64,000 nucleotides of DNA from contig NZ_CP041763.1 in assembly GCF_007559005.1 (NCBI RefSeq), forward strand, positions 496,001-560,000, read 5' to 3'. The stretch comes from Gordonia zhaorongruii. Its GTDB lineage: Bacteria; Actinomycetota; Actinomycetes; Mycobacteriales; Mycobacteriaceae. Below are positions 1-50,213 of the stretch, piece after piece. The notes beneath the pieces are model-generated. The model was not told the DNA's origin. It did not search any database and saw nothing but the letters and a program-made list of their open reading frames with translations. Within the stretch, counting starts at the first letter, position 1. Each line of letters begins with the position of its first letter. A program made the position numbers and the translations under genes.

Positions 1-3000
1 GAGTTGGGGTGCTCACCGCCGATGACGAGGGTGCTCAGCTGCGGCAGGTCGTCCGGCGACATCGTCGTCAGCAATGACGGAGTGAGGAACGCGTGGGTGA
101 TCGTGGAATCGGCCATCAGATCAGACAGTTCGCGACCGCCGAGGAGACCGGCCGGTGCGATGTACATGCTCGCGGCGGCGCCGACCGCCATGATCATCTC
201 GAGCACAGAGGCGTCGAAGCTCGGCGACGCGAGGTGCAGTGTCCGGCTCTCTCCCGTGAGCGCCAGATGCGATACCTGTTCGGCGGCGAAGTCGGCGAGA
301 CCTCGGTGGCCCACCACGACGCCCTTCGGCCGTCCGGTGGTCCCCGAGGTGTAGATCAGGTACGCGGGCTGATCGACGTTCACCGACTCGGTGCGGTCGG
401 CGTCGGTGATGCCCGAGGCCGAATGGTCTTGCAGGGTGTCGATGATGTCGGCCGAGTCGAGGACGATGGTGGTGCGGTCGTGCGCCTCGGTGAGGAGAGT
501 GCGGGACGCCTGGTCGGTGACGACGATCCGCGCACCGGAGTCGGCGAGCATGAACTCGGTACGTGCGCGTGGGTACCCAGGATCGACCGGAACCCAAGCG
601 GACCCGGACTTGGCGACTGCCCACAGCGTGATCATCCAGTCGACCCCGCGAGGCAGCGACACGGCGACGTAACGCTCCGGCCCGGCGCCGGCTGCGATCA
701 GCAGCCGTGCCAACCGGTTGGACGACTCGTCGAGCTCGCGGTAGGTCAGCTGACGAGTGCTCGAGGTGTCAACCACCGCGGGGCGGAAGGGATCCGCGGC
801 GACCGCGGTGCGGAGGAGCTGTGACAGATGTTCCACCGGGCGGGATCCGCCACCCACTGCGGGCACCAGGTCGAGCCGGTCGGCGGGATCGAGGGTGCAG
901 GCGTCGCCGATCGAGATCTGGGGATCGTTCGATACCGTCTGCAGCAGCCTCACGCACCGTGAGGCGAGTCCCGCAGCGGTGTCGTGGTCGAAGAGCTCGT
1001 CCGCGTATCCGAGGGCGAGCTCCATGCCCCGGTTCTCGTCGGCCGCAGCGGACTGGTGGGAGACGGTGAACTCCAGGTCGAACTTGATGGTGCCGGTATC
1101 GACCTTGGCTGCGGTCGCCGACAGTCCGACGAAGTCGAGGGAGACCCGGGTGGCGTCCTCCAGTGCGACCGACACGTCGAAATAGGGTTGGCCGCTGCTG
1201 CTGCGCGGAGGATTCAGCTCGGTGACCAGTCGGTCGAACGGGACGTCGGCGTTGTCGAACGCGGCTAGGTCGCGTTCGCGCACGGTGGCCAGCAGGTCAG
1301 CGAACGAGGCGTTCTTATCCACCGGCGTCCGAAGGGCGAGCGTGTTGACGAACATGCCGACCAGCGGATCGAGATCATCGGTGCCACGTCCCGAGACCGG
1401 CGTGCCGACCACCACGTCGTCGGTGGTCGACACAGTGCGCAGCAGGGCGGCTACGGCGGCGTGCACGACCATGAAGAGGGTGGTGTCGTGTCGTTCGGCC
1501 AGTTGCACGAGACGGGTTCGGGTGGCGGCGTCGATCGGTGCGCAGACGTACGCCCCCGACCGTGTATCGGCGCGCGACGGAGACCGGTCGTAGGGAAGTT
1601 CCGTGTCGACGGGAGCGTTGCGCAGGGCGTCGGCCCAGTAGCCGATCTGGCGGCCGGCAGTGGATGCCGGATCGTCGAGCCACGCGATTCGGTCGGCGCT
1701 CGCCTGACCGTAGGTAATCGGGAGCTCGTTCCATGCAGGAGCTTCACCGGCCTGCCGGGACCGATACGCGGCCGCCAGGTCGGTGGCCAACGGGCCGAGC
1801 GACCACCCGTCGGCGGCGATGTGGTGAATCACCACGACGAGGGCGTGGTCGTGATTGCCGTTGGTGATGATCCGCGCCCGGATCGGCAAGTCCGCGGTGA
1901 GATCGAAGGGTTGAGCGGCGAAATCCGTAGCGCTCCCGGCCGAACTCGCATCGTAGGCGGGGATCTGGACGAGTCCGTCGGCCGCCGGATGCACGCGCTG
2001 GCAGGCGATACCCGCTTCGTCGCTGACCGTCGTGCGCAGCGGCTCGTGCCGGGCGACGACATCGTTCAGCGCCGTGCGCAGGGCCTCGATGTCGAGCTTG
2101 CCGATCATTCGGACGGTGAACGGGATGTGGTAATTCGAGGTTGATGTCGAATCGAGCCGTGCCGCCAGCCACAGCCGGCGTTGAGCGGGTGACAGGGGGA
2201 CCGGCCCGCTGATCGCGCGGGCGCGAGTTGCGGGGGCCGGCGGTGTGACGGCATGGTCGGACACCCCGAGCGCACGTATCGTCGCGACGATGCCGGCGAT
2301 GTCCGCTGAATCGAAGATGGCCCGGATGCCGATATCAGCGCCGGTGGATTTGGAGAGCCGGGCTGCCACCCGGGTGGCAGCGAGTGAGTTGCCGCCGAGC
2401 TCGAAGAAGCTCGATGTCATGGACACCTCGGATACGCCGAGGACGGTGCTGACCGTGTCGTGGACGCGGTGCTCCAGCGCGGTGTCCGGGGCGACGAGTA
2501 CGGTGGCGCCGCCCTGGCGGGCCAGATCAGGTCGCGGGAGCGCCCGGCGGTCGAGCTTGCCGTTGGTCGTCGTCGGAAGTGCGTCGCACACCATGACGAC
2601 GGTCGGAATCATGTGGTCCGGAAGGGCTGTCGACAGCTCGGATCGGAGATCGCGGTCGGCATTCAGGTCTCCGCTGACGTAGCCGACGACGATCGGATCG
2701 GCGAGCACGTCGTCCCGCACCACAGCCCCAGCGCTCCGGACGCTCGGCAGTGCGGCGAGAGCCGACTCGATCTCGCCGAGCTCGACGCGCTGACCGCGGA
2801 TCTTGATCTGGGAGTCGCTGCGTCCGAGGTACTCCAGTTCGCCGTCGGTACGACGACGAACGAGATCGCCGGTGCGGTAGAGGCGTCCTCCCGTCGCGAA
2901 CGGGTCGGGGACGAAGCGGTCCGCGGTGAGATCGGAGCGACCCAGGTAGCCGCGAGCCAGTTGCACGCCGCCGAGATACAGTTCGCCGATCGCACCGGTC

Positions 3001-5438
3001 GGCATCGGGGTGAGCCTGCGGTCGAGCACGTAAGCGGTGGTGTTGTGGACCGGCAGGCCGATGGGCACGATCGGATCAGCAGGGTCGCACGCGCTGTGGT
3101 TGGTGACATCGATCGCGGTCTCGGTGGGGCCGTACAAGTTGTGGACCGGCGCCGCGGTGAGGGCGGCGGTCGCGGCGACGATGCTGGGTGTCAGCGCTTC
3201 GCCGCTGGTGAAGATCATTCGCACTGAAGCGAGCGCATCGTGCGTCCGGTCGGCGGTCTTCTCGTCTACGGAGCTTCCGAGTGCCTCGGCGAAGGCGGAG
3301 AGCATCGACGGGACGAAGTGCAGTGCGCTCACGCGCGTCTGCTCGATGACACGCCGCAGGTACCACGGGTCGCGGTGCCCGTCCGGCGCGGCGATGACCA
3401 CTGCGGCACCGGCGATGAGCGGCCAAAAATACTCCCATACGGAGACGTCGAAGCTGGCGGGCGTCTTGTGGAGCACCCGGTCGTCGGGTGTGAGTGCATA
3501 GGCGTCCTGCATCCAGAGCAGGCGGTTCATCAGCGCGCGATGCGTCACCAGAACCCCCTTCGGCGTTCCAGTGGATCCCGAGGTGAACAGCAGGTAGGCC
3601 CCGTTGTCCGGTCGGGTCGATTCCACCGTCGCTGTCCGGCCGGTCGGCGGCTCGGCCCGCAGAGTCTGCAGCGTCGCGGTGGGTACGCGCAGGTCTGCGT
3701 GCAATCCGTCGGGCACGATGACCAGTTCGGGCGCGGCGACGTCGAGGATGTGGTGCAGCCGTGACTCCGGCTCGTCCGGAGAGAGCGGCACGAACACGGC
3801 ACCCGAGCAGGTCACTGCGTGTAGGGCCGTGTGCAGATCGATTCCGCGTGGAAGCATCACGCCGACAATCGATTCAGGACCGATGCCCCGGCGGCGCAGT
3901 GACTCGGTGAGGGTCGTGACCCGGCGCTGAACCTCGCCGTAGGTGAGGCTGTCGCCGTCCGGGCCGATGAACGCCGTGCGGTCGTCGAACTGCCGGTACG
4001 CCTCGGCGAGCATCGCGGCGAGGGTGCGGTCGCCGTAGCGGACCGCAGAGCCCACGGCATGCCGGTTCAGCTGTGCGGCCTCGTCGCCGCTCGCCAGCGG
4101 CAGATCGGTGACGGCGAGCGCCGGACCGGCACCCGCGAAGCAGGAGAGGAAGTCGATGAGACGCCGGTGGTGGTCCTGCACCTCCGTCTGGCTGTAGACG
4201 TTCGGGTTGGCCTCGAGGTCCAAGCTCATGCCGCCGAACATCGTGTCGTAGACGTTCACCGAGGCGTCCTCGACGGGACCGGTCGACAGGATGTTCAATT
4301 CTCCGGGAAGCGAACCGAAGTCGATGTGCTTGAAGAACAGCATCACGTTGACCATCGGCCCGAAGAAGCCGCGTCGGCCACCCTGTGCGCCGAGGACCTC
4401 GGAGGTGATGTCCTCGTGCCGGAACCGCTGGTGACGCACCGCGTTCTTGACCTCTGAATTCACTGCACGGATCAGATCGTCGATACGGCGCGGGCCGTCG
4501 GCGTCGTCGATGCTCGAGAGGACGGGGACGACGTTGGAGGTGAGGCCTGCCGAGGTGCGCAGTGCGTCGGTGTCGCGGACTGCGACCGGGAGGCTGATCA
4601 TCGTGTCGTCGGTGTTGTTGAAGCGGGCCAGATACAGCGCGACGGCCGCGCTGATGACCGAGGCCGGACGGACTTCTAGCTCGGCGGCCCGGCCGCGGAT
4701 CTGCGCGACGACGTCATCGTCGAGAGCCTCGGACACGATCGTCGCGAGGGGTGCGGCGACGTCGGTGCGCGTGGAGAACGACGTCGTGGGCAGCGCGCCG
4801 GTGCCGGTGACGAGGCGGCGCGTCCAGAAGTCGCAGGAGTCGCTGAACCGCTCCGAACCGCGGTAGTCGGCGTCGATTCCGGCGACGTCGGCCATCGTAG
4901 CGATGTCGGCGTCGGGCAGCGGACTGCCGTCGGCAGCCGTGTATCGCTGAGCGACGCGGAGCATCATGTACATTGCCGCGTAGCCGTCGAAGGCCAGGTG
5001 GTGGCCCCAGCAGTACCAGATGCTGTGTGCGGGGCCGAGAGTCAGCAGGTATGTCTGCAGGAGCGGATCGGTGAACAGGTCGGGGACGCGCGACCGGTGC
5101 TCGTCCATCCACTGCCGGGCCGCCGCGGCCGGATCATCGTGATACGAGAAGTCGCGCTGCCCGAGTTCGATGACCCGGTCGGTGTCGACCAGCACCGTCG
5201 GTTCATCCTCGCCGTTCCGGATGAGTCGCAGCAGTCCGGACTCGGTCTCGGCAGTCGTATCGGCGACCGCCCGGTCCAATCGTGACGATTCGACCTCCCC
5301 GTGAAATTCGACGAAGGCAGCCACCGACATGGGCACATGCGGATCGATCTGCTGCGCGTAGTAGATGCCACGCTGTGCTGCGGTAAGCGGCAACTCCACC
5401 CGGGTCGATCCGGAATGGATGAGATTGTCGGTGCTCAC
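1..5438 (-). CDS. Nonribosomal peptide synthetase, 5' part (C-A-T-C-A..., cut by window edge)
   Basis: Multidomain peptide synthetase; 1812 complete codons are visible and the reading frame leaves the window at base 1. Domains in order: condensation 1 (about 12-440, catalytic HHLAFDG at 146-152), adenylation 1 (about 460-965, core SGSTGTPKG near 616, ending in NGKLDRR), carrier domain (GGNSL, phosphopantetheine Ser about 1018), condensation 2 (HHIAADG at 1205), adenylation 2 (TSGTTGRPKG near 1698, incomplete). Aligning adenylation 1 to GrsA gives the pocket residues D-V-W-H-F-S-L-I-D plus the usual Lys, which is the known serine code. Adenylation 2 shows D-A-L-F-V-G before the edge, too little to assign. 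The GTG start at 5438 has a perfect AAGGAGG 5 bases upstream. Starting with a condensation domain means it either acylates the first residue or takes a chain from another synthetase. The product is unknown; a siderophore or lipopeptide is possible. Confidence 0.93.
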   Translation of the reverse strand, partial: MSTDNLIHSGSTRVELPLTAAQRGIYYAQQIDPHVPMSVAAFVEFHGEVESSRLDRAVADTTAETESGLLRLIRNGEDEPTVLVDTDRVIELGQRDFSYHDDPAAAARQWMDEHRSRVPDLFTDPLLQTYLLTLGPAHSIWYCWGHHLAFDGYAAMYMMLRVAQRYTAADGSPLPDADIATMADVAGIDADYRGSERFSDSCDFWTRRLVTGTGALPTTSFSTRTDVAAPLATIVSEALDDDVVAQIRGRAAELEVRPASVISAAVALYLARFNNTDDTMISLPVAVRDTDALRTSAGLTSNVVPVLSSIDDADGPRRIDDLIRAVNSEVKNAVRHQRFRHEDITSEVLGAQGGRRGFFGPMVNVMLFFKHIDFGSLPGELNILSTGPVEDASVNVYDTMFGGMSLDLEANPNVYSQTEVQDHHRRLIDFLSCFAGAGPALAVTDLPLASGDEAAQLNRHAVGSAVRYGDRTLAAMLAEAYRQFDDRTAFIGPDGDSLTYGEVQRRVTTLTESLRRRGIGPESIVGVMLPRGIDLHTALHAVTCSGAVFVPLSPDEPESRLHHILDVAAPELVIVPDGLHADLRVPTATLQTLRAEPPTGRTATVESTRPDNGAYLLFTSGSTGTPKGVLVTHRALMNRLLWMQDAYALTPDDRVLHKTPASFDVSVWEYFWPLIAGAAVVIAAPDGHRDPWYLRRVIEQTRVSALHFVPSMLSAFAEALGSSVDEKTADRTHDALASVRMIFTSGEALTPSIVAATAALTAAPVHNLYGPTETAIDVTNHSACDPADPIVPIGLPVHNTTAYVLDRRLTPMPTGAIGELYLGGVQLARGYLGRSDLTADRFVPDPFATGGRLYRTGDLVRRRTDGELEYLGRSDSQIKIRGQRVELGEIESALAALPSVRSAGAVVRDDVLADPIVVGYVSGDLNADRDLRSELSTALPDHMIPTVVMVCDALPTTTNGKLDRRALPRPDLARQGGATVLVAPDTALEHRVHDTVSTVLGVSEVSMTSSFFELGGNSLAATRVAARLSKSTGADIGIRAIFDSADIAGIVATIRALGVSDHAVTPPAPATRARAISGPVPLSPAQRRLWLAARLDSTSTSNYHIPFTVRMIGKLDIEALRTALNDVVARHEPLRTTVSDEAGIACQRVHPAADGLVQIPAYDASSAGSATDFAAQPFDLTADLPIRARIITNGNHDHALVVVIHHIAADGWSLGPLATDLAAAYRSRQAGEAPAWNELPITYGQASADRIAWLDDPASTAGRQIGYWADALRNAPVDTELPYDRSPSRADTRSGAYVCAPIDAATRTRLVQLAERHDTTLFMVVHAAVAALLRTVSTTDDVVVGTPVSGRGTDDLDPLVGMFVNTLALRTPVDKNASFADLLATVRERDLAAFDNADVPFDRLVTELNPPRSSSGQPYFDVSVALEDATRVSLDFVGLSATAAKVDTGTIKFDLEFTVSHQSAAADENRGMELALGYADELFDHDTAAGLASRCVRLLQTVSNDPQISIGDACTLDPADRLDLVPAVGGGSRPVEHLSQLLRTAVAADPFRPAVVDTSSTRQLTYRELDESSNRLARLLIAAGAGPERYVAVSLPRGVDWMITLWAVAKSGSAWVPVDPGYPRARTEFMLADSGARIVVTDQASRTLLTEAHDRTTIVLDSADIIDTLQDHSASGITDADRTESVNVDQPAYLIYTSGTTGRPKGVVVGHRGLADFAAEQVSHLALTGESRTLHLASPSFDASVLEMIMAVGAAASMYIAPAGLLGGRELSDLMADSTITHAFLTPSLLTTMSPDDLPQLSTLVIGGEHPN

Positions 5439-14421: not shown

Positions 14422-14489
14422 ACTCGGTGGTCGAACTTTCCTCGGTGGTTGAGCCTCCTCGGTGGTTGAGCTTCCCTCGGAGGTTGAGC
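14422..14489. repeat. Short tandem repeats left of the GIY-YIG gene
   Basis: Four copies of about 14 bases (CTCGGTGGTTGAGC and variants) start at about 14422, 14441, 14458 and 14476, a period of 17-19. They lead directly into the left 46-bp inverted repeat. Confidence 0.7.
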
Positions 14490-14527
14490 CGCGGGCGAGG
14501 CGTTAGCCGAGGACGCGTGTCGAAACC
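14482..14527. repeat. Left 46-bp inverted repeat
   Basis: Starts GGTTGAGCCGCGG and ends GTGTCGAAACC. It pairs with 14906-14951 in inverted orientation with four mismatches. The next two bases (AC) extend the GTGGTTTC end seen in the 50-kb copy. Confidence 0.85.
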
Positions 14528-14539
14528 ACGCGACGCCGT

Positions 14540-14848
14540 TCACCCGTCGCCCGACTCCGTGCTCGGCCGGAACCCGCGCCTGGACAGGCCCGGCAACTGG
14601 TCGTAAGCACCGTCGATCGACGCCTTGCGCTTGGCCCGGGACCAGCCTTGCACTCGCTTCTCCATTGAGAAGGCCTCGGCGACGTTCTCGAACTCGGCGA
14701 CGAACTTCAGCTCGATCGGCCTGCGTCGTCGGGTGTACTCGGCACCGAGTCCGACGCTGTGCTGGTGCACGCGCGCATCCACGTTGCGGGTACTGCCGAC
14801 GTAGTAGGAGCCGTCTGCGCATTGCACGATGTACATGTAGGCCGTCAT
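14540..14848 (-). CDS. GIY-YIG endonuclease domain protein
   Basis: 102-residue single-domain nuclease of the UvrC/Intron-type fold. The N-terminus MYIVQCADGSYYVGSTRN holds the GIY-YIG counterparts YIV and YVG. The catalytic Arg is in DARVHQH and the metal-binding Glu in AFSMEKRVQGWSRAKR. The ATG at 14848 is chosen because it begins at the fold; upstream in-frame codons run through repeat-like DNA. Stand-alone GIY-YIG proteins are common but their targets are mostly unknown. Here the gene fills the space between two 46-bp inverted repeats, suggesting that it acts on, or moves with, these repeats. Confidence 0.85.
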   Translation of the reverse strand: MTAYMYIVQCADGSYYVGSTRNVDARVHQHSVGLGAEYTRRRRPIELKFVAEFENVAEAFSMEKRVQGWSRAKRKASIDGAYDQLPGLSRRGFRPSTESGDG

Positions 14849-14905
14849 GGGAATCAGTCTCCGGACGGACCGGCGTGGGGTCGAGCGGGTCGTGCACAGG
14901 GGCAT

Positions 14906-14951
14906 GGTTTCGACTCGCGTCCTCGGCTGGCGCCTCGGCCGCGGCTCAACC
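14906..14951. repeat. Right 46-bp inverted repeat
   Basis: Starts GGTTTCGACTCGCG and ends CGCGGCTCAACC. It is the inverted partner of 14482-14527 and runs straight into a 28-bp-period tandem repeat. Confidence 0.85.
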
Positions 14952-15100
14952 AGCGAGTAGGGCGGTCTGCGGATCAACCTGCGGGTAGGGCGGGGTGCAG
15001 CTCAACCAGCGAATAGGGCGAGCTGGGGCTCAACCAGCGAGGAGGGACGGGTTGCGGCTCAACCAGCGAGGGGACGGGTCGCGGCTCGACCAGCGAGGCT
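14941..15100. repeat. Six tandem ~28-bp repeats
   Basis: Six copies of a unit containing GCTCAACCAGCGAG begin near 14944, 14972, 15000, 15028, 15057 and 15084, a spacing of 27-29 bases. Copies vary between the conserved blocks. The array ends five bases before the stop codon of the acyl-CoA dehydrogenase gene, so it lies in that operon's 3' end. Confidence 0.8.
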
Positions 15101-15104
15101 GGGA

Positions 15105-16193
15105 CTACTGCAGCGAGATCTCGGCGAGGGCCTCGTGGGGGCGGCCGAAGAGCTGGGCGTCAGCGTTGGCACGCTTGAAGAACAGGCCGATGTCGTGCTC
15201 CCAGGTGATGCCGATTCCGCCGTGCAGCTGGATGGCCTCACCGGTCACGCGCAGGTACTCCTCGGAGCAGTAGGCGTGGGCGGCGGCCGCGAGCTCGGCG
15301 GCATCGTCACGGCCCTCGACCAGAGCGGCGACGGCGGCGCCGGACAGCGAGCGCATCGCCTCCACCGACACGTACATGTCGGCCATTCTGTGCTTCAGCG
15401 CCTGGAAGGACGCCAGAGTGCGCCCGAACTGCGAACGCGACTGCGTGTACTCGACGGTCAACGCAACCGCGCGGGCGGCACCGCCGACCTGCTCGGCCGA
15501 CAGCATCGTCCAGGCGAGCGTGCGGACGCGTTCAGCGAGGTCCGGAGGCGAGGCGATTGTGGTGGCCGGCACGTCGTCGAAGGTGACGCGAGCCAGGGCG
15601 CGGGTCGGATCGAGGACGGGCAGCGCAGTCACCGTGACACCGGGAGTGGACGCCGGGATCTCATGCAGGGTGATGGCGGCTGGGTCGTCGTCGGTGCCCG
15701 CGAGCACGAGGAACACGTCCGCGGACTCGCCGTCGAGAACGTAGTCGGCTGTGCCCGAGAGCATCCCGGCGTTCGCGGTGACACCGGGATCGGCCCACCC
15801 CTGCGGGCCCGCCCAGCAGAGGGCGCCGATGGTCTCGCCGGACGCGAGGCCGGGCAGGAGCCTGGCTGCGGAGTCGGGGTCGTCGGCGGCCAGCACCGTG
15901 CCGACCGCCAGCACCGCAGAGGAGAGGACGGGAACGGGTGCGAGCGCCGCACCGATCTCCTCGACGGCCAGAGCGGCTTCACCCCATGAGGCGCCCGCGC
16001 CGTCGTGATCCTCGTCGACGGCGAGTGCGGCGACGCCGATCTCGGTGCAGAGGGTGGTCCAGAGGCTCCGGTCGACGCGACCGTCCGCCGCCATGGCGGC
16101 ACGCACCGCGGCGGGGTCACTGCGCTTGCGCAGCAGGTCGCGGATCGAGTCGGTGAGCGCGGCGCGATCCTCGGCGCCGATCGGGGAGGTCAC
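15105..16193 (-). CDS. Acyl-CoA dehydrogenase subunit (FadE33-like)
   Basis: 362-residue acyl-CoA dehydrogenase-family protein, probably one subunit of a heteromeric FAD enzyme. C-terminal features: TQSRSQFGRTLASFQALKHRMADM (FAD-domain helix) and GEAIQLHGGIGITWEHDIGLFFKRA. The GTG start at 16193 overlaps the preceding stop by four bases (GTGA); an upstream ATG is rejected because it would overlap that gene by 49 bases. It ends an echA-fadE-fadE-fadE operon behind a KstR2-type operator. In M. tuberculosis, fadE31-fadE32-fadE33 of the KstR2 regulon are three adjacent dehydrogenase genes. The one-to-one assignment is inference. Confidence 0.85.
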   Translation of the reverse strand: MTSPIGAEDRAALTDSIRDLLRKRSDPAAVRAAMAADGRVDRSLWTTLCTEIGVAALAVDEDHDGAGASWGEAALAVEEIGAALAPVPVLSSAVLAVGTVLAADDPDSAARLLPGLASGETIGALCWAGPQGWADPGVTANAGMLSGTADYVLDGESADVFLVLAGTDDDPAAITLHEIPASTPGVTVTALPVLDPTRALARVTFDDVPATTIASPPDLAERVRTLAWTMLSAEQVGGAARAVALTVEYTQSRSQFGRTLASFQALKHRMADMYVSVEAMRSLSGAAVAALVEGRDDAAELAAAAHAYCSEEYLRVTGEAIQLHGGIGITWEHDIGLFFKRANADAQLFGRPHEALAEISLQ

Positions 16194-17158
16194 AGGCTCT
16201 CCAGAATCCGGGCGCGATGGTAGGCGGGCGTGCCCCACGCGGTGAGGAGTGCTCGGGTCTTCGTGAGATACAGCGAGAGATCGTGCTCGGCCGTGTAACC
16301 GATGGCGCCGAGCACCTGCAACGCGCGACGCGATGCCAGGTAGGCGGCGTCACCCGCGGCGACCTTGGCCGCTGCGACGTCGCGGCTCACAACGGTGCCT
16401 TCGGGCGCTTGGCCGTCGATGCCGACAGCGGCGCCGTGGACCAGCGGACGAGCCATCTCGACGGCGACCGCGACGTCGGCCAGATGGTGTTTCACCGCCT
16501 GGAACGAGCCGATCTCCCGGCCGAACTGCTTGCGTGACTTGGCGTAGTCAGCGGCGAGGTCCAGCATGGCCGAGCCCAGCCCGAGGAGCTGGGCTGCGGT
16601 CGCGAGCGCGCCGATATCGGCGGCAGCGGCGGTATCGACGTCGCCGAGGCCGCGATCGGCGGTGAGCACCGCGACGCGTCTCGTCGGGTCGACGGTGTCG
16701 AGGAGTTCGCCTGCGGTGGCTGTGGAGACTGCTCCGTCGGCCAGCAGGTACGCGTCTGCGACGTCCGGGTTGGCGGCACGCGGAGTCGCGGGTGGGAGCG
16801 CTGCGGTAGCGGGAGTGCCGGCCAGGACGGCTTCGAGCTCATTGGATGCGCTCGCGGCAGCGAGCACCGTGGGGACCACGGCCAGGGTCTCGGTGGCCGG
16901 GCCGGGCAGCGCGTACCGGCCCACGTGCTCGAGTGCCATCACCATCTCGGTGGCGCCTGCACCACTGCCGCCGACATCGTCGGGGACGAGCAGCCCGGTG
17001 ATGCCGGCCTCGGCCAGCTGTCGGTAGACGCTCAGGGCTCCGTCGGTGTCTCCGGACTCCGCCCACGCACGGGCAACCGAGATGCCGCCCGCGCGTTCGA
17101 TGATGCCGTCGACGGTCTGCGCCAGATCGGTGTGAATGTCGTTGAGCAGGAATTCCAT
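16190..17158 (-). CDS. Acyl-CoA dehydrogenase subunit (FadE32-like)
   Basis: 322 residues, short for the family (usually about 380) but typical of beta-type subunits in the actinobacterial heteromeric steroid dehydrogenases. It has KSRKQFGREIGSFQAVKHHLADVA and ALQVLGAIGYTAEHDLSLYLTK, but no C-terminal GTNEIQ segment. It starts at the ATG 17158, two bases after the stop of the upstream dehydrogenase gene, and overlaps the downstream start by four bases. A catalytic pair with the 388-residue protein encoded upstream is likely. Confidence 0.87.
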   Translation of the reverse strand: MEFLLNDIHTDLAQTVDGIIERAGGISVARAWAESGDTDGALSVYRQLAEAGITGLLVPDDVGGSGAGATEMVMALEHVGRYALPGPATETLAVVPTVLAAASASNELEAVLAGTPATAALPPATPRAANPDVADAYLLADGAVSTATAGELLDTVDPTRRVAVLTADRGLGDVDTAAAADIGALATAAQLLGLGSAMLDLAADYAKSRKQFGREIGSFQAVKHHLADVAVAVEMARPLVHGAAVGIDGQAPEGTVVSRDVAAAKVAAGDAAYLASRRALQVLGAIGYTAEHDLSLYLTKTRALLTAWGTPAYHRARILESL

Positions 17159-29753: not shown

Positions 29754-31313
29754 TCAGTCGATGAATTCGATAGTCACTTCGTCCGGCGGTACCGGCTGAG
29801 GAGCCGATGGGATTCGACACTCGAGCCATCGCTCGATCCGCGACCTGCGCCGTCGCTGTCTGGATTCATCGGCCGGATCCGGTTGGGAAGGAGTGACGTC
29901 CGGATTCTCCCGAAGTAGCTTCTCGGGAAGGTGCGTGTGGTTGACCTGCCACGGTTCACTCGAACCGGTCGGCCGCCAGCCGACTCGGCCTTGATGTGGT
30001 CCGTGGGCGATGATCGTGGTCTCCCAGCCGCCCGGGTCGGTACTGACCTTGCGGTTGTCGCCACCGCACGCGGCGCCGAGGTGATCGATATCGGTGGGGC
30101 CGCCGTGCTGCCAGTCGGGCATGTGGTGTGCCTGAGTCCGGCTGAATGGAGCGGTGCATCCTGGTGCGGTGCAGCCGCGGTCACGGCCGAAGATGGCGAT
30201 GCGCTGCGCGAGTGAGGCGAGGCGCCGACCGCGACCGAGGTAGAGGATCGACGAACTGTGATCAGCGAAGACCTCGAGCCACGGCGTCGCATGTGCGGCT
30301 AGGTCGACGAGGTCTTTGACTGGAAGCCGAGTGCCGGTAGCGGTGTGCGCGACACCGGTGCGCTGTTCGATGTCGGTGAGGCTGGCGGTGACGACGAGAT
30401 GCGCCGGGAGTCCGGTGGGGCGTCCGAGTGCGCCGTGGCCGATGAGGTAGTCGAGCATCGCCTCGAGGGCATCGTGGTTGCGCTGTGTCTGCGTGCGGTC
30501 GTCGCGTTCAGCGGCGGCGGTGAGCGCAGCGGTGTCGATCTCGGGGTCGTTGGCCGCACCGTACGGTGACTGGTCGTCGTCCGGGTTGTTTATTCCAGGT
30601 GCGGCCCATTGCAGCAGGAGTGCTTCGAGTTTTGCGCGCAGTTCCGGCTTGAGCATGGCTCGTACCTTCGACATGAGCTGGCGGTCCTGCGGTTGAACGG
30701 TGAATCCGCGGGTGCGCTTGCGATCGCGATCATCGGTCAGGTCTCCGTCAGGATCGAGGTGCGCGAGGAGCCTGTTGCCGACGGTTGCCAGTCCGGCAGG
30801 CGACAGAGCACGGGCGGCTTCGGCGAGCTGGGCCTCAGCGTCGGCTCGCACATCGTCGGCGACGCGGTGGGGAATCCGATCCATGGTCTTCTCGATCTGG
30901 AGGACGTGGTCGGTTCCGATCGCCCCGTCCGACACTGCGTCCGCGGTTGCCGGGAGGGCCGGGTCGAGGGTCTCGCCCTGGAAACTTGTCATGTGGGCGA
31001 TCGCCGCAGCGACTGTGCGACGCCGTTTGGCCTCGCTCGACCCGAGTCGGAGGCCCGACTCGAGGTACGTCGTCGGACTCAGATACCCGGCTTTCCGGTA
31101 CGACATGCGGTCCGATAGCTCGGTGAAGAGTGCGGCGTCGACTCCGTCGGTGCGACGGTGGGCGCGCTCGAAGATCTCGACGGTCGGGAGGACCTCGTCG
31201 TCCGGCATCGCGACGAGAGATGTCGCGGCAAGTTTGGCTGCAGCGGCGTCGATGAGTTTGACCAGCTCGAGCGGAGTATCAGGTAGGTCGTGGTGGGTTT
31301 CGGGTCCGGTCAC
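29754..31313 (-). CDS. DUF222 / HNH endonuclease (13E12-type) protein
   Basis: About 519 residues. The N-terminal DUF222 region has the typical SYRKAGYLSPTTYLESGLRLGSSEAKRR. The C-terminal HNH nuclease domain is visible as DRGCTAPGCTAPFSRTQAHH, then DWQHGGPTDIDHLGAACGGDNR with zinc-type Cys and the His-Asn-His residues. This multicopy family is widespread in mycolata (REP13E12 in M. tuberculosis) and its function is unknown. GTG 31313 is chosen because GGAGG lies 8 bases upstream; ATG 31319 and GTG 31322 are too close to it. The gene looks intact. Confidence 0.88.
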   Translation of the reverse strand: MTGPETHHDLPDTPLELVKLIDAAAAKLAATSLVAMPDDEVLPTVEIFERAHRRTDGVDAALFTELSDRMSYRKAGYLSPTTYLESGLRLGSSEAKRRRTVAAAIAHMTSFQGETLDPALPATADAVSDGAIGTDHVLQIEKTMDRIPHRVADDVRADAEAQLAEAARALSPAGLATVGNRLLAHLDPDGDLTDDRDRKRTRGFTVQPQDRQLMSKVRAMLKPELRAKLEALLLQWAAPGINNPDDDQSPYGAANDPEIDTAALTAAAERDDRTQTQRNHDALEAMLDYLIGHGALGRPTGLPAHLVVTASLTDIEQRTGVAHTATGTRLPVKDLVDLAAHATPWLEVFADHSSSILYLGRGRRLASLAQRIAIFGRDRGCTAPGCTAPFSRTQAHHMPDWQHGGPTDIDHLGAACGGDNRKVSTDPGGWETTIIAHGPHQGRVGWRPTGSSEPWQVNHTHLPEKLLRENPDVTPSQPDPADESRQRRRRSRIERWLECRIPSAPQPVPPDEVTIEFID

Positions 31314-31322
31314 TGCCATCAC

Positions 31323-31665: not shown

Positions 31666-32358
31666 ATGACCGGTCCGAATGATGGCGATCCGAGCGAGAA
31701 TCCCGACCATGGTCCGGACGGAGGTCGGGAGCCGAGTTCGGAGGGTGGCGCGACGCCGCCATCCGGCCAGCCGGAGTCGCCGGATTACGGCCAGCAGCAG
31801 GCGGATTACGGCCAGCAGCAGCCGGATTACGGCCAGCAGGGTCTGCCGGATTACGGCCAGCACCAGCCGGGATACGGTCAGCAGGGCCTGCCGGGTTACG
31901 GTCAGCAGGGCCTGCCGGGTTACGGTCAGCAGCCGGGATACGGCGGGCAGTCCGGATACGGTCAGGATCAGCCGGGATACGGTCAGCCGTTCGCGGGACA
32001 GCCGTACCCTCAGCAGGGTGGTCCAGCCGGTCCGCCGCCAGCCAACAATATGGCGTCGTCGATCATCGTGACCGTTCTCGGCTTCGTCCTCACGTGCGTC
32101 AGTTGCATCAGCCTGGTTGCCGGAGTGATCGGCATCGTGGCGATCGTGAAGGCAAACTCGGTCAACGGTTTGTGGGCGTCGGGCAATCAGGCCGGCGCGC
32201 ACGAAGCCGCGAACGAGGCGAAGAAGTACGCGAAAATCGCATGGATCGTCCTTGCGGTCATGATCGCGCTGTGGATCATCCTGGTGATCATTCTCGCGGT
32301 GACCGGCACTTCCGTCGGCTACTACGACTTCGACACCTACAGCGGCACCTCGACGTAG
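31666..32358 (+). CDS. Dispanin/CD225-like membrane protein with YGQQ repeats
   Basis: 230-residue protein. Residues 1-38 are acidic and disordered. Residues about 39-115 are tandem Tyr-Gly-Gln repeats ([15 protein letters not shown]). The C-terminal part has two membrane helices (about 127-152 and 190-216) joined by a loop [30 protein letters not shown], the layout of bacterial CD225/dispanin proteins. The Tyr-rich cytosolic part could phase-separate or bind partners; the role is unknown. The ribosome-binding site is GGGAGG. It is followed after 11 bases by a DUF2752 gene, a pairing often seen in actinobacteria. Confidence 0.82.
31781..31990 (+). repeat. Coding tandem repeat (YGQQ units)
   Basis: About ten imperfect 15-27-base units such as GATTACGGCCAGCAG and GGTTACGGTCAGCAG encode the Tyr-Gly-Gln repeats. 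Two adjacent GGTTACGGTCAGCAGGGCCT units are identical, so copy number is probably variable. Confidence 0.85.
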
Positions 32359-32891: not shown

Positions 32892-34394
32892 CTACAACGG
32901 CCAGTTGTGCACCGGCTCGCCCTCGTGCATGAGCGTCGCGTAGTCGGACAGCATGCCGTGCAGCGCCTGATCCCGGCTCTCGCCGGCGGCTTCGCGCACT
33001 TGAACCGCGCGGCGCTGCCACACCGATCCCGTCTGACGGGTGACACATCGGCCCTCGATGACTCCGAGGTAGCGGCGTCGTGCGGCTGCGGACACCCCGA
33101 ATGACGCAAGGCCCTCCTCGGCGAGCGGTAGGAGACGTCGCAGGGCGAGTTCGTCCGGCCGCACCCAGCCGATGTCGGGCCAGTACAACTGGGCGTCGAG
33201 TCCCCATTGCGCTCCCGAGGTCAGGTTCTCCCTGGCGGCGTCGAACGACATCCGCGACCACAGCGGTCGGTCCGCTTCCACCAGGCCGCGGACCACACCG
33301 TAGTAGAAGGCGGCGTTGGCCATTATGTCGACGACCGTCGGACCTGCGGGCAGCACGCGATTCTCCACGCGCAGATGCGCATTGCCGTCGAGAACGTCGT
33401 AGACGGGGCGGTTCCACCGGTACACGGTTCCGTTGTGGAGCTTGAGTTCGGTGAGTTCGGGAATCCGTCCGGCATCCAGTTCGGCGAGCGGGTCGACGTC
33501 GGTCGACACCGGCAGGAGGGCGGGGAAGTACCGGGTGTTCTCCTCGAACAGGTCGAAGATCGTGTTGATCCAACGCTCCCCGAACCACACGCGAGGGCGG
33601 ACTCCCTGATTCTTCAACTCCAGTGGGCGGGTGTCGGTGGCCTGTTGGAACACCGGTATCCGGGTCTCGTGCCATAGGGCCTTGCCTGCGAGGAACGGAG
33701 AGTTCCCTGCCAGTGCCACCTGAACGCCCGAGATGGCCTGGGCCGCATTCCAATGCGCGGCGAAGTCCTCGGGTGCCACCCGCAGATGCAACTGCAGCGA
33801 GGTGCAGGCGGCCTCCGGAAGAATCGAATCTGTGGTGGTGGTGAGGCGTTCGGCGGACGACTCCAAGGGCACGCCCGCGATGTCGATCGCCAGATCCTCC
33901 CCGCGCGCTGCGAAGATCTGCTCGTTGATCAAGTCGTACCGCGGGTTCGCCGAGATCCATTGATGCGCGAAATGCTCCTGCTGCAATGTCGGCAGCATGC
34001 CGATCATCACCAGGTGGTTTCCGGTCGACGCGGCTTTCGCCTCAGCGTTGTTCAACGACGATCGCAGTGCCTGCTCGAGGCTGACGGTGTCGCCTCCGAC
34101 GAACGGCCTCGGCGAGACGTTGATCTCGACGTTGAACTGGCCGAGCTCGGTCTGATAGTCGGGATCGGCGATTGCGTCGAGCACCTCGGCGTTCGCCATC
34201 GAGGGGTCGGCCCGAGCATCGATCAAGTTCAGCTCCACTTCCATACCGAGGAGTGGTTCAGGCGGGCGGCCGTGATCGGTGAACAGGCCGTCCGACAGCA
34301 TCCGGGCGATCGCATCTGTCCCGCGGGATACGCGCTCCCGGAAGCGCACGCGATCGGCTCCGTTGAACTTCTGCTGGCTCACTTCGGCGCCCAT
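32892..34394 (-). CDS. Glutamate-cysteine ligase family 2 (GCS2-like) protein
   Basis: 500-residue member of the GCS2 carboxylate-amine ligase family. Seen: LLGMEVELNLID near residue 48, GQFNVEINVSPRP, ACTSLQLHLRV and RVENRVLPAGPTVVDI. These enzymes form amide bonds with ATP; GCS2 relatives include YbdK-type ligases. Mycolata use mycothiol rather than glutathione, so true glutathione synthesis is unlikely and the substrate is open. The ATG at 34394 (MGAEVSQQKF) is chosen; the in-frame DNA upstream reads into the 32-bp repeat region. It is convergent with the DUF2752 gene. Confidence 0.85.
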   Translation of the reverse strand: MGAEVSQQKFNGADRVRFRERVSRGTDAIARMLSDGLFTDHGRPPEPLLGMEVELNLIDARADPSMANAEVLDAIADPDYQTELGQFNVEINVSPRPFVGGDTVSLEQALRSSLNNAEAKAASTGNHLVMIGMLPTLQQEHFAHQWISANPRYDLINEQIFAARGEDLAIDIAGVPLESSAERLTTTTDSILPEAACTSLQLHLRVAPEDFAAHWNAAQAISGVQVALAGNSPFLAGKALWHETRIPVFQQATDTRPLELKNQGVRPRVWFGERWINTIFDLFEENTRYFPALLPVSTDVDPLAELDAGRIPELTELKLHNGTVYRWNRPVYDVLDGNAHLRVENRVLPAGPTVVDIMANAAFYYGVVRGLVEADRPLWSRMSFDAARENLTSGAQWGLDAQLYWPDIGWVRPDELALRRLLPLAEEGLASFGVSAAARRRYLGVIEGRCVTRQTGSVWQRRAVQVREAAGESRDQALHGMLSDYATLMHEGEPVHNWPL

Positions 34395-34466
34395 GAGGCA
34401 ATGGTGCCGAACGACGAGGCGTTCCTGGTGCCGATCGATGCATTTGCTTTCCTGTCTGCCGTGCAG

Positions 34467-34498
34467 AGTTCCCCGCACAGCGGCGGAAACCGTGTCAC
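34467..34498. repeat. Direct repeat copy 1 (left of DUF559 gene)
   Basis: 32 bp beginning AGTTCCCCGCACAGCG and ending GGAAACCGTGTCAC. Copy 2 at 35434-35466 is the same apart from one extra T and one G/A change. The ends GTTCC/GGAAAC make it partly palindromic. Confidence 0.85.
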
Positions 34499-34609
34499 GA
34501 AGTCTCACGCGCTGAGCGGTGAAATCCAGACGGCGAGGTCCATCCACAGATCTCGGGCAAGGCGCGAGAACCCGAACCGCAGTGAGGGCTGATCGGTGAG
34601 GGTCGTCCC

Positions 34610-35497
34610 ATGACGGCGATCAGACCGGGCGTGTACCCGACGAAGCTTCTCAACCGGAGCGTGGGCCGTGCGGGCCTCGCCGAGCTGATCCGCACTCGAC
34701 ACGCGCGTCTGATCCGAAGAGGCTGGTACGAGGTGGGAAACGCGAACTCCGATGAGGTGGCCGCGGTAGCGCGCGGCGGAGTGCTCAGTTGCGTGAGCGC
34801 ATTGAGACGTCACGGGGTCTGGGTGCCGGAGACTCACGAACTGCACATTCGCGGGAACTCGTCGGCGGTGCGGTACCGGAAGGGGCCGTTCTGCCGGGAC
34901 TTCCGTCGCCCTTCGGCCGAAGAGGGCGCCGTCGACGACATCGCGGTTGCCGTTCGTCACGCCGCCCGTTGCCTGAGTGGAGAGGGCTTCGTCGTCGTGT
35001 GCGATTCGATCCTCAATCGGCGACTGATGACAGTCGACGAACTCGACTATCAGTTTCGTGACGCACCGCTGTGGGCGCAGCGTCTACTCGCCAAGTGCGA
35101 TGGAAGATCCGAGTCGGGCCCGGAGACCATGGCCAGGCTCCGGCTGCTCGGACAGAAGGTCCGGGTCCGGACCCAAGTGGTGATCGAGGGAGTGGGACGC
35201 GTGGACCTGCTCGTCGGCGACTATCTGATCATCGAAATCGACGGGTGGGAGTTCCACGGGGACCGTCAGCACTTCCAGAGTGACCGCAGTCGGGACATCG
35301 CGGCCCACGAGTTGGGCTTTCACACTCTCCGGTTCACGTACGCGGACGTGGTCTACCGATGGGACGAGACCAACGCTCAAATTCTGGCCGCGGTACGCGC
35401 TGGAGTGCACATCCGACGGAGCCGACGCGCGGGAGTTTCCCCGCACAGCGACGGAAACCGTGTCACAGGGTTATCGGACGGTATCGGGGAACCTTAG
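34610..35497 (+). CDS. AbiEi-like N-terminus with DUF559 (Vsr-type) nuclease domain
   Basis: 295-residue protein. The N-terminal part looks like the winged-helix region of AbiEi-type antitoxins (LIRTRHARLIRRGWYEV, GVLSCVSALRRHGVWVP). The C-terminal DUF559 domain is a PD-(D/E)XK nuclease: GRVDLLVGDYLIIEIDGWEFH, then HFQSDRSRDIAAHELGFHTLRFTYADVV. Such proteins are frequent in actinobacteria; defence or repair roles are suspected but unproven. The last 22 or so residues are encoded by the right direct repeat, so the gene end and the repeat are fused. No partner gene lies beside it. Confidence 0.82.
   Translation: MTAIRPGVYPTKLLNRSVGRAGLAELIRTRHARLIRRGWYEVGNANSDEVAAVARGGVLSCVSALRRHGVWVPETHELHIRGNSSAVRYRKGPFCRDFRRPSAEEGAVDDIAVAVRHAARCLSGEGFVVVCDSILNRRLMTVDELDYQFRDAPLWAQRLLAKCDGRSESGPETMARLRLLGQKVRVRTQVVIEGVGRVDLLVGDYLIIEIDGWEFHGDRQHFQSDRSRDIAAHELGFHTLRFTYADVVYRWDETNAQILAAVRAGVHIRRSRRAGVSPHSDGNRVTGLSDGIGEP
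35434..35466. repeat. Direct repeat copy 2 (3' end of DUF559 gene)
   Basis: 33 bp beginning AGTTTCCCCGCACAGCG and ending GGAAACCGTGTCAC, in the same orientation as copy 1, 967 bases away. It lies within the coding sequence of the nuclease gene. It forms a GTTTCC / GGAAAC inverted end pair. Confidence 0.85.
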
Positions 35498-35524: not shown

Positions 35525-36394
35525 ATGCCGAACGAGATGACCGCCGACCTGCACACCCACACGAACTGCTCGGACGGCACAGACACTCCGCAACAGCTCC
35601 TGGCGAAGGCGAAGGTAGCGGGTCTCACCACGCTCGGCCTCACCGATCACGACACCGCAGCCGGATGGGACGAGGCTGCGCTGAACGTTCCCGCCGGAAT
35701 GAGAATCCTGCCGGGCGCCGAGTTCTCCACGAAGCATCCGGCACCTGACGGCACGCTCGTATCGGTGCATCTGCTCGGTTACCTGTTCGACCGGAACAAC
35801 GCGGAGATCGTCGCCGAGTGGGAGCGCATGAGCTCGGAGCGGTCCAACAGGGGTACGCGGATCGTCGAGAACCTGATCGACGCTGATTACCCGATCACCC
35901 TCGACCGGGTACGGGAGATCGCCGGCCGGACCAATATCGGACGTCCGCACATCGCTCGTGCGCTGGTCGAGGCAGGCTCCGTCGATTCGGTGGGTGAGGC
36001 GTTCGATGGTCTGCTGAACGACGAGGGCGCACATTACGTGGCGCTGCAGTCGTTGTCGCTGGAGAACGGCATCAGGATGATCGATGCGGCCGGCGGTGTC
36101 CCGATCATCGCGCACCCGCGTGCCCGTGCGGCGTCGTCGCTTCTGACGGAAGAGGTGCTCGAATCGTTGACGAAGCACGGTTTGAAGGGCATCGAGGTCC
36201 GCCATCCCGATCACGATGATGCCGCCCGAACGGAGCTCACCGGAATCGCGATCGACCTCGGCCTGATCCAGACCGGTTCGAGTGACTACCACGGCGAGAA
36301 CAAGGTTCTCCAGCTCGGGCAGGAGCGAACGCCGGACGACGTCGTCGAGCAGATCGTCGCTCTCGGATGCACGGCACCGTTCACGAAGCAGTAG
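35525..36394 (+). CDS. PHP-domain phosphoesterase
   Basis: 289-residue metal-dependent phosphoesterase of the PHP family. Metal-binding motifs are all visible: DLHTHTNCSDG at 8-18, LTDHD at 39-43, GAEFST, IIAHPRA and SSDYHG near the C-terminus. Relatives hydrolyse nucleotide 3',5'-bisphosphate or phosphoesters such as oligoribonucleotides. The ATG at 35525 is preceded by TAGCAT seven bases upstream, consistent with leaderless transcription. It is followed after seven bases by the SCP-like gene. Confidence 0.88.
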   Translation: MPNEMTADLHTHTNCSDGTDTPQQLLAKAKVAGLTTLGLTDHDTAAGWDEAALNVPAGMRILPGAEFSTKHPAPDGTLVSVHLLGYLFDRNNAEIVAEWERMSSERSNRGTRIVENLIDADYPITLDRVREIAGRTNIGRPHIARALVEAGSVDSVGEAFDGLLNDEGAHYVALQSLSLENGIRMIDAAGGVPIIAHPRARAASSLLTEEVLESLTKHGLKGIEVRHPDHDDAARTELTGIAIDLGLIQTGSSDYHGENKVLQLGQERTPDDVVEQIVALGCTAPFTKQ

Positions 36395-50066: not shown

Positions 50067-50213
50067 GGTTGAGCGAGGGGGCGTCCTCTCGCTGGTTGAG
50101 CGAGGGCCGTCCTCTCGGTGGTTGAGCGAGCGAAGCGAGTCGAAACCACGTCGGCGGGAAATGGGAATGCTCGGCCGCTCTCGCTGGTTGAGCGAGCGGA
50201 GCGAGTCGAAACC
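50067..50213. repeat. TTGAGCGAG repeat cluster
   Basis: GGTTGAGCGAG occurs at about 50067, 50094, 50120 and 50186. The last two extend to 28-bp units (50120-50147 and 50186-50213) ending GCGAGTCGAAACC that differ at one base. Each unit is palindromic-like in its GAGCGAGCG core. The cluster ends six bases before the nitrobindin stop codon. Confidence 0.8.

Follow-up and report, generated by a model that had tools for sequence, protein, structure and literature searches.

Dispersed palindromes that accompany a particular gene are known from REP/REPIN sequences with their RAYT (TnpA-REP) proteins and from TIRtrons. The available portions of the reports on these systems describe a gene flanked by palindromes together with dispersed non-autonomous copies (PMC3116915, PMC3733652, PMC8266576). 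According to the same portions, the repeats have conserved ends and a spacer of set length, are extragenic, and fall into several groups, each near its own gene (PMC3116915, PMC3733652, PMC8266576).

Enzymes with an EDxHD or Vsr-like fold have been described in other settings. For I-Bth0305I, the available part of a review describes dimerisation on a target of nearly 60 bp (PMC3943268). VsrA of Caulobacter is a predicted Vsr-like mismatch-repair endonuclease; the available text of its paper mentions DUF559 once, and the word stem 'palindrom' is absent from it (PMC12907096). In the open-access literature, as covered by titles and the beginnings of abstracts, nothing was found that connects dispersed palindromes with DUF559/Vsr-like or AbiEi-nuclease genes.

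Here we describe a DUF559 nuclease gene of Gordonia zhaorongruii that lies between two palindromes, and its relatives in other genomes. The gene is located in a 64-kb stretch of the chromosome, hereafter called the window. A first-pass annotation of the window had noted the repeats around this gene and had proposed either a cassette that is gained or lost by recombination between them or a nuclease that acts on its own flanks.

Results

The nuclease gene and its flanking palindromes

Two 30-nt direct repeats (34469-34498 and 35437-35466) are located around the nuclease gene in the window. The first-pass annotation was right that these near-identical repeats are real: they share 97% identity over 30 nt and lie 968 bp apart. 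When up to three mismatches were allowed, the 30-nt repeat matched twice in the window and was absent from all 100 dinucleotide shuffles, so it is far beyond chance. Each repeat runs on into an inverted second half, and the whole unit is an imperfect palindrome of about 58 nt (Table 1). The right palindrome overlaps the 3' end of the nuclease ORF and, as had also been noted, the right repeat encodes the C-terminal tail of the product. This tail has low model confidence, and the paralogue stops about 20 residues sooner. The window's own two palindrome copies are decayed. Their hairpin z values are -1.6 and -2.3, whereas those of three lone copies range from -4.2 to -6.2. The GCS2 and PHP genes on the two sides are divergent, and thus the nuclease cassette occupies their common upstream region.

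Table 1. Features of the nuclease locus, in window coordinates.
Feature	Position	Strand	Remark
Left (5') palindromic element, family 1, AGTTCCCCGC...GCGGTGAAAT, decayed	34466..34526	.	DNA hairpin z -1.6
Right (3') palindromic element, family 1, GTTTCCCCGC...CGGGGAAC	35435..35492	.	DNA hairpin z -2.3
Nuclease gene, 295 aa; weak AbiEi likeness in the N-terminal part, plus EDxHD/Vsr-like endonuclease domain (DUF559/MTES_1575)	34610..35497	+	
Endonuclease domain, about residues 165-268; conserved E172, D199, E209, D211, H216, D225	35102..35413	+	
Left neighbour, glutamate-cysteine ligase-type gene (GCS2)	32892..34394	-	start set by reading sequence
Right neighbour, PHP-domain gene, divergent from GCS2 gene	35525..36394	+	

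Lone copies and paralogues in the same chromosome

A search for further genomic copies of the repeat, proposed at the first pass, was productive. Six further family-1 elements, all exactly 55 nt long, were found in the 3.23-Mb chromosome with an arms-and-gap pattern, and the reversed-pattern control gave no match there. The G. zhaorongruii chromosome has three DUF559 genes. The second one (L039) is framed by two 80-nt repeats that are 80% identical and 1000 nt apart; they belong to palindrome family 2, unlike family 1 of the window gene. Family 2 has at least 11 exact-ended copies genome-wide, two of which are the flanks of L039, and all 11 are 61 nt long with common ends and a CTATAG centre. 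The third DUF559 gene has an inverted repeat at its 3' end alone, which is under the palindrome threshold, and no bracketing pair.

Dispersed palindrome copies without the gene exist in families 1, 2 and T (the last is described below). Among the lone copies of families 1 and 2, 11 of 15 lie outside ORFs as judged by a GC3-based ORF proxy. Lone-element copy numbers are low. A 400-kb sample of genome G553 yielded a single convincing lone copy, and nearly all other arm matches there were at noise level.

Bracketing in Gordonia and in other genera

All Gordonia genomes searched (59/59), which represent each species by one genome, had a nuclease match at E 0.001 or better. We examined 107 loci, consisting of 77 from Gordonia, which are part of the matches, and 30 from other genera, which were taken from order- and phylum-wide samples and have E-values of about 1e-78 to 3e-20. 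L237, a split gene that was not positive, is excluded from this set, and the loci L261 and L262, which are the same as L230 and L067, respectively, were each counted once. A locus was regarded as positive when its left and right flanks had a common repeat scoring at least 17.

By this measure 63/107 loci were positive, compared with 9/425 shifted control intervals. The corresponding numbers were 38/77 against 6/305 shifted intervals of equal length in the same loci for Gordonia, and 25/30 against 3/120 for the other genera; thus 39 Gordonia loci and five other loci had no shared repeat above the threshold. In a mismatched-flank control, 29/1500 (Gordonia) and 10/1500 (other genera) were positive. 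Because many of the Gordonia loci are mutual orthologues (75 syntenic pairs), locus counts overstate independence, and clusters at 60% protein identity were therefore also counted. At least one positive locus was found in 41 of the 52 clusters, and in 16 of 23 when clusters of Gordonia alone were considered.

Palindromes were present at the 5' gene edge in 30/72 loci and at the 3' edge in 45/72, compared with 20/431 control windows. When palindromes were defined by 15/18 terminal pairs and a span of 46-110 nt, their median span across all loci was 70 nt. By this definition, the 63 positive loci had a palindrome on at least one side in 53 cases, on both sides in 34 and on neither in 10, and 29 of the 44 loci without a shared repeat had one on at least one side.

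Bracketing was also seen at two of three Tsukamurella loci, which were counted apart from the 107. A set of 19 weak generic DUF559 loci (L238-L256) was examined as well. L238, L239, L240, L241, L243, L246 and L250 were dropped from it; their genes are cut by contig ends, so that the assumed gene position is wrong, and several gave false repeat scores. One of the 12 usable loci was positive (only L256 reached 17), with gene ends being uncertain in this set. Since these loci were mostly negative, bracketing seems to be a trait of this nuclease subfamily. Plasmid and phage collections gave four and one distant matches, respectively.

Palindrome families and nuclease clades

Judged by inspection, palindrome families track nuclease clades. 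Among pairs of loci without syntenic flanks, a palindrome was shared in 0/1566 at less than 45% protein identity, in 11/691 at 45-65% identity and in 2/14 above that. The clade-T arm pattern CCAGATGACACCTGAGCG had at least three matches in seven of the 59 genomes, and the reversed-pattern control had at most two per genome. These seven genomes are all six that have a clade-T nuclease among the loci examined, plus G038, whose nuclease (L053) carries a palindrome related to the clade-T family. Family 1 had eight matches in this genome (G000), six in G017 and at most two in every other genome, with at most one in the control. Two of the six matches in G017 flank its nuclease gene and four lie elsewhere.

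The two families checked genome by genome, 1 and T, therefore co-occur with their own nuclease. Dispersal of the repeat in dozens of places away from nuclease genes had been named at the first pass as a sign against the proposed cassette. This applies in part, since six exact-ended lone copies of family 1 exist; however, the tested families occur where the matching nuclease occurs, and this strengthens the link between palindrome and nuclease.

Occupied and empty sites

The GCS2/PHP site was compared in 16 genomes with the PHP gene, the present genome counted. GCS2 and PHP genes are head to head in nine of them; in three, GCS2 is on the other side of the PHP gene, and in four it is not in view. 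Among the nine head-to-head genomes, the nuclease is present in this genome and in G023 and absent from seven, where a short spacer is left, so the locus is not fixed in relatives. The G023 nuclease (L120) is 66% identical to the window protein and has a family-1 palindrome at the PHP side only. G037 and G017, which are empty at the GCS2/PHP site, each carry a nuclease elsewhere, at a site that is syntenic between the two and has a family-1 palindrome on either side of the gene. The protein of G037 shares 61% identity with the window protein, and the palindrome pair there is too diverged for the shared-repeat threshold. In G017 the nuclease gene (L203, about 2860-3663) is shortened and much of the nuclease domain is lost; both flanking family-1 palindromes are nearly perfect. 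The region of this genome that matches the G037/G017 site is rearranged and has no nuclease at that position.

The idea of a cassette that can be gained or lost agrees with the site being empty in seven of nine head-to-head genomes, two of which carry a family-1-flanked nuclease elsewhere. The proposed route, loss through recombination between the repeats, is less well supported: none of the compared sites (GCS2/PHP in 16 genomes; L201-L203) showed a clean remnant with one palindrome, and the flanks are clearly direct in only 21 of 63 loci. Transposition and differential loss are both possible explanations of the presence/absence pattern.

L200/L201 resembles a G037/G017 cassette reduced to one palindrome, but it does not qualify as a clean scar, because the genes are in another order and one of them is inverted. 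Comparison of a lone palindrome (L152) with the 59 genomes revealed no empty site in synteny; other repeats, including a second palindrome family, were present in the query. One repeat in this query looked tRNA-like, and ARAGORN found no tRNA there. The stretch of L152 at about 1972-2038 is a further dispersed repeat in G025 and G055, probably a palindrome family given its matches on both strands. Two copies of this L152-type repeat lie about 1 kb apart in G055 (G055:C13:15495 and 16527), with no nuclease-like translation above score (L308). Long near-perfect palindromes of other types are present in three of the seven empty GCS2/PHP spacers (L121, L122 and L127).

Anatomy of the palindromic element

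Elements of one family are almost uniform in length, with 55 nt in 6/6, 61 nt in 11/11 and 65 nt in 17/20 copies (lengths of 63-67 nt being permitted in the search for the last). The arms are invariant or almost so and the interior is variable. Covariation was absent from the interiors of the 11 family-2 copies, in which 75.3% of cells were paired compared with 75.8% in shuffles. A hairpin as the conserved feature was rejected on this basis, and inverted arms at fixed spacing on duplex DNA are favoured. The two halves of one element resembled each other no more than halves drawn from separate elements did (0.59 vs 0.61 and 0.44 vs 0.42). On the question of whether half-elements are exchanged at the centre, some pairs are alike in one half only, yet the halves correlate overall.

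Among 120 elements, from families with unrelated arms, A+T makes up 66% of the central 4 nt and about 32% of the interior close by. Averaged over 42 nuclease clusters, central A+T was 0.56 vs 0.31 (p 0.0005), and in 25 control palindromes it was 0.35 vs 0.30. Such an anatomy would be expected of a duplex target that has two-fold symmetry and is cut in the middle.

Of the 63 positive loci, 21 have flanking copies that are clearly direct repeats and 11 have inverted ones; in the other 31 the copies are near-symmetric. The flanking pair of family 2 ranks 25 of 55 pairs in likeness and is no closer than lone copies, and so these flanks are not simply a fresh duplication of each other.

The nuclease protein

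The window protein is predicted to consist of an EDxHD/Vsr-like endonuclease domain and an N-terminus weakly like AbiEi. Its Pfam matches were DUF559 (24.7 bits, cut-off 20.6) and MTES_1575 (26.5 bits, under the cut-off of 38.2). Among nine proteins, DUF559 and MTES_1575 matched 9/9, AbiEi_4 2/9 and AbiEi_3_N 1/9, and the remainder were single weak matches. No transposase family, including Y1 HUH, was among the Pfam matches of the nine proteins, and the fold is EDxHD/Vsr-like. PADLOC AbiEi profiles matched 6/9 relatives (best 1e-6), with 0.003 for the window protein. NCBIfam gave no match. The nine named relatives of the window protein, from a search of genome contigs, are eight Gordonia loci and one labelled Acidobacteriaceae.

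An AlphaFold2 model of the window protein, built from nine sequences, had a pLDDT of 75 and a pTM of 0.68. Residues 165-268 of the model matched the structures of NGO0050 (Z 13.2), the catalytic domain of I-Bth0305I (3r3p; Z 13.1) and the Vsr-DNA complex (Z 10.8), and residues 46-164 matched the AbiEi antitoxin structure 6y8q (Z 5.8, weak by the tool's own note). Across the 107 loci, E172, D199, D211 and D225 are conserved in 107/107, H216 in 102/107 and E209 in 100/107. We assigned the motif name EDxHD to the E, D, H and D residues ourselves. Conservation of such active-site-type residues points to selection on catalysis.

Other repeats in the window and in related genomes

The first-pass annotation had counted the gene as the second repeat-enclosed nuclease in 64 kb. 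This was not confirmed for one candidate, the DUF222 gene at 29754-31322 (6e-60), which has no flanking palindrome pair and may be the gene that was meant. Dispersed, partly inverted and tandem units of the type GGTTGAGCGAGCGAAGCGAGTCGAAACC are present at 14476-15098 and 50078-50213, adjoin an acyl-CoA dehydrogenase gene (15105-16238) and lie near a DUF1416 gene. Tandem repeats of 21-24 nt at 31755-31987, in the predicted ORF 31666-32358, code for PDYGQQ-like units.

In G032 (C1, about 1.754 Mb; L155/L167), units of about 110 nt occur at 322-nt spacing around clade-T arm matches. The 400-kb sample of G553 contains 25 palindromes with at least 16/18 arm pairing, compared with two in a triplet-shuffled control. 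Two palindrome copies of 54-56 nt, AGAAATCCCCTTCGTCGG...GGGGATTTCT, lie 5.7 kb apart in G553 (L311, about 12527 and 18243).

Discussion

There is very strong evidence that clades of this nuclease are often bracketed by two members of a clade-specific palindrome family. We lean slightly towards the view that the gene and its two palindromes are one unit of a two-part selfish system that resembles REP/RAYT. As in REP/RAYT and TIRtrons, the gene is flanked by palindromes, lone copies are dispersed and, in this genome, mostly intergenic, and the ends are conserved at a set spacing. There are also several repeat families, each near its own gene. However, the enzyme is an EDxHD/Vsr-like nuclease and not a Y1 HUH protein, so that a defining feature of REP/RAYT is missed. 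Unlike REPINs, the interiors of family 2, the sole family examined in this respect, do not covary as a hairpin, and the ends of families 1, 2 and T have no GTAG tag. Copies are far fewer than in the genome of the REPIN paper, the available part of which gives 1376 matching positions with up to five mismatches (PMC3116915).

The EDxHD homing endonucleases are similar in another way. I-Bth0305I has the same catalytic fold (Z 13.1) and a long dimeric target, as reported in the available part of the review (PMC3943268). Unlike those enzymes, the present gene is free-standing and intergenic, and its N-terminal part is weakly AbiEi-like. The cassette bears two target-like elements and may not destroy one. 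Vsr mismatch endonucleases and VsrA share the catalytic fold (Z 10.8 against the Vsr-DNA complex). The N-terminal part resembles AbiEi of AbiE type IV systems, weakly so by structure; unlike AbiE, the protein has a C-terminal nuclease domain, and there is no AbiEii gene beside the window gene. A composite transposon or insertion sequence differs in that Pfam found no transposase family here and the flanks are without fixed orientation.

We infer the following mechanism from these features. Two nuclease monomers would bind both conserved arms of the 55-80-nt element through their N-terminal parts, and the EDxHD domains would cut or nick its AT-rich centre. With such a dimer, the palindrome would be both the target site and the end of the cassette, and a palindrome standing alone would be a non-autonomous passenger and a landing site. 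Breaks at lone or bracketed elements may be repaired in such a way that cassettes and palindromes are copied or moved, through homing-like repair or through cut-and-rejoin between element centres. Multiplication of lone copies is the weakest step of this mechanism. The earlier suggestion of a nuclease acting on its own flanks would fit the family-specific matching of nuclease and palindrome.

AbiEi proteins are regulators, and the palindromes might be operators or bidirectional terminators, with the AbiEi-like part repressing its own promoter via the inverted repeat and the 3' copy ending transcription. Pfam's own name for AbiEi_4 denotes a regulator, and the similarity of the N-terminal part to AbiEi, in both the PADLOC profiles (six of nine relatives, best 1e-6; window protein 0.003) and the structure match (Z 5.8), points the same way. 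The distance from the end of the 5' element to the matched gene start downstream is 31-194 nt (90-151 nt in 18/30), and several lone elements start no more than about 20 nt from a gene end, including some between convergent genes. However, one family occurs on both sides of the gene, copies lie far from any nuclease, the whole unit is present or absent at a syntenic site, and some loci have strong palindromes at the 3' side only. An operator also leaves the AT-rich centre that is common to unrelated families unexplained, and we regard this explanation as unlikely. It is similarly improbable that passive REP-like repeats are spread by another enzyme and that the nuclease gene is merely carried between two of them, gained and lost by homologous recombination. 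Near-full-length direct repeats at many loci (e.g. L102, L292 and L297) and the existence of empty sites agree with such a process, but clades would not be expected to have their own palindrome families under it, nor genomes with a tested family to have the nuclease. In addition, 11 of the 63 pairs are clearly inverted, the two flanks of family 2 resemble each other no more than lone copies do (rank 25 of 55 pairs), and a clean remnant with one palindrome was absent from the few sites compared.

The gene might also belong to defence or be a toxin-antitoxin gene, i.e. an AbiE-like or restriction-like nuclease, and the repeats would then merely reflect a defence hotspot. The AbiEi similarity of the N-terminal part is in line with this, and PGAP calls two of the three Tsukamurella relatives 'type IV toxin-antitoxin system AbiEi family antitoxin domain-containing protein'. 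The genomic neighbourhoods argue against it. The window neighbours are the GCS2 and PHP genes, with no adjoining AbiEii toxin gene, and the genes annotated next to the three Tsukamurella relatives are mutually unrelated and include no toxin (an antiporter subunit and an AAA ATPase; NUDIX and a GMC oxidoreductase; DUF2470 and an MFS transporter). Since family-specific repeats are not expected of a defence gene either, we consider this explanation very unlikely.

Many relatives of the nuclease in other actinobacteria are framed by their own, different palindromes, which suggests that nuclease and palindromes form a selfish DNA element of an undescribed kind. A wider proposal is tentative, and we give it somewhat less than an even chance. 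According to it, there is a not-yet-described class of mobile DNA in which dimeric EDxHD/Vsr-like nucleases with an AbiEi-type head would cut their own 55-80-nt palindromes at the centre, and which would spread as lone elements and as cassettes in many Actinomycetes.

If this is true, the REP/RAYT way of life would have originated a second time, independently, on the basis of homing-endonuclease chemistry, and gene-associated dispersed palindromes would have arisen at least twice with unrelated enzymes. A set of Actinomycete proteins annotated as 'DUF559' or 'AbiEi-domain' would gain a likely job and a predicted DNA target, namely the adjoining palindrome. Dozens of nuclease-target pairs with different specificities would become available, and their function would be directly testable in vitro. 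If the mechanism holds, the system would deserve a class of its own. The palindromic repeats of Gordonia and its relatives, for which we found no described mobiliser, would then have one.
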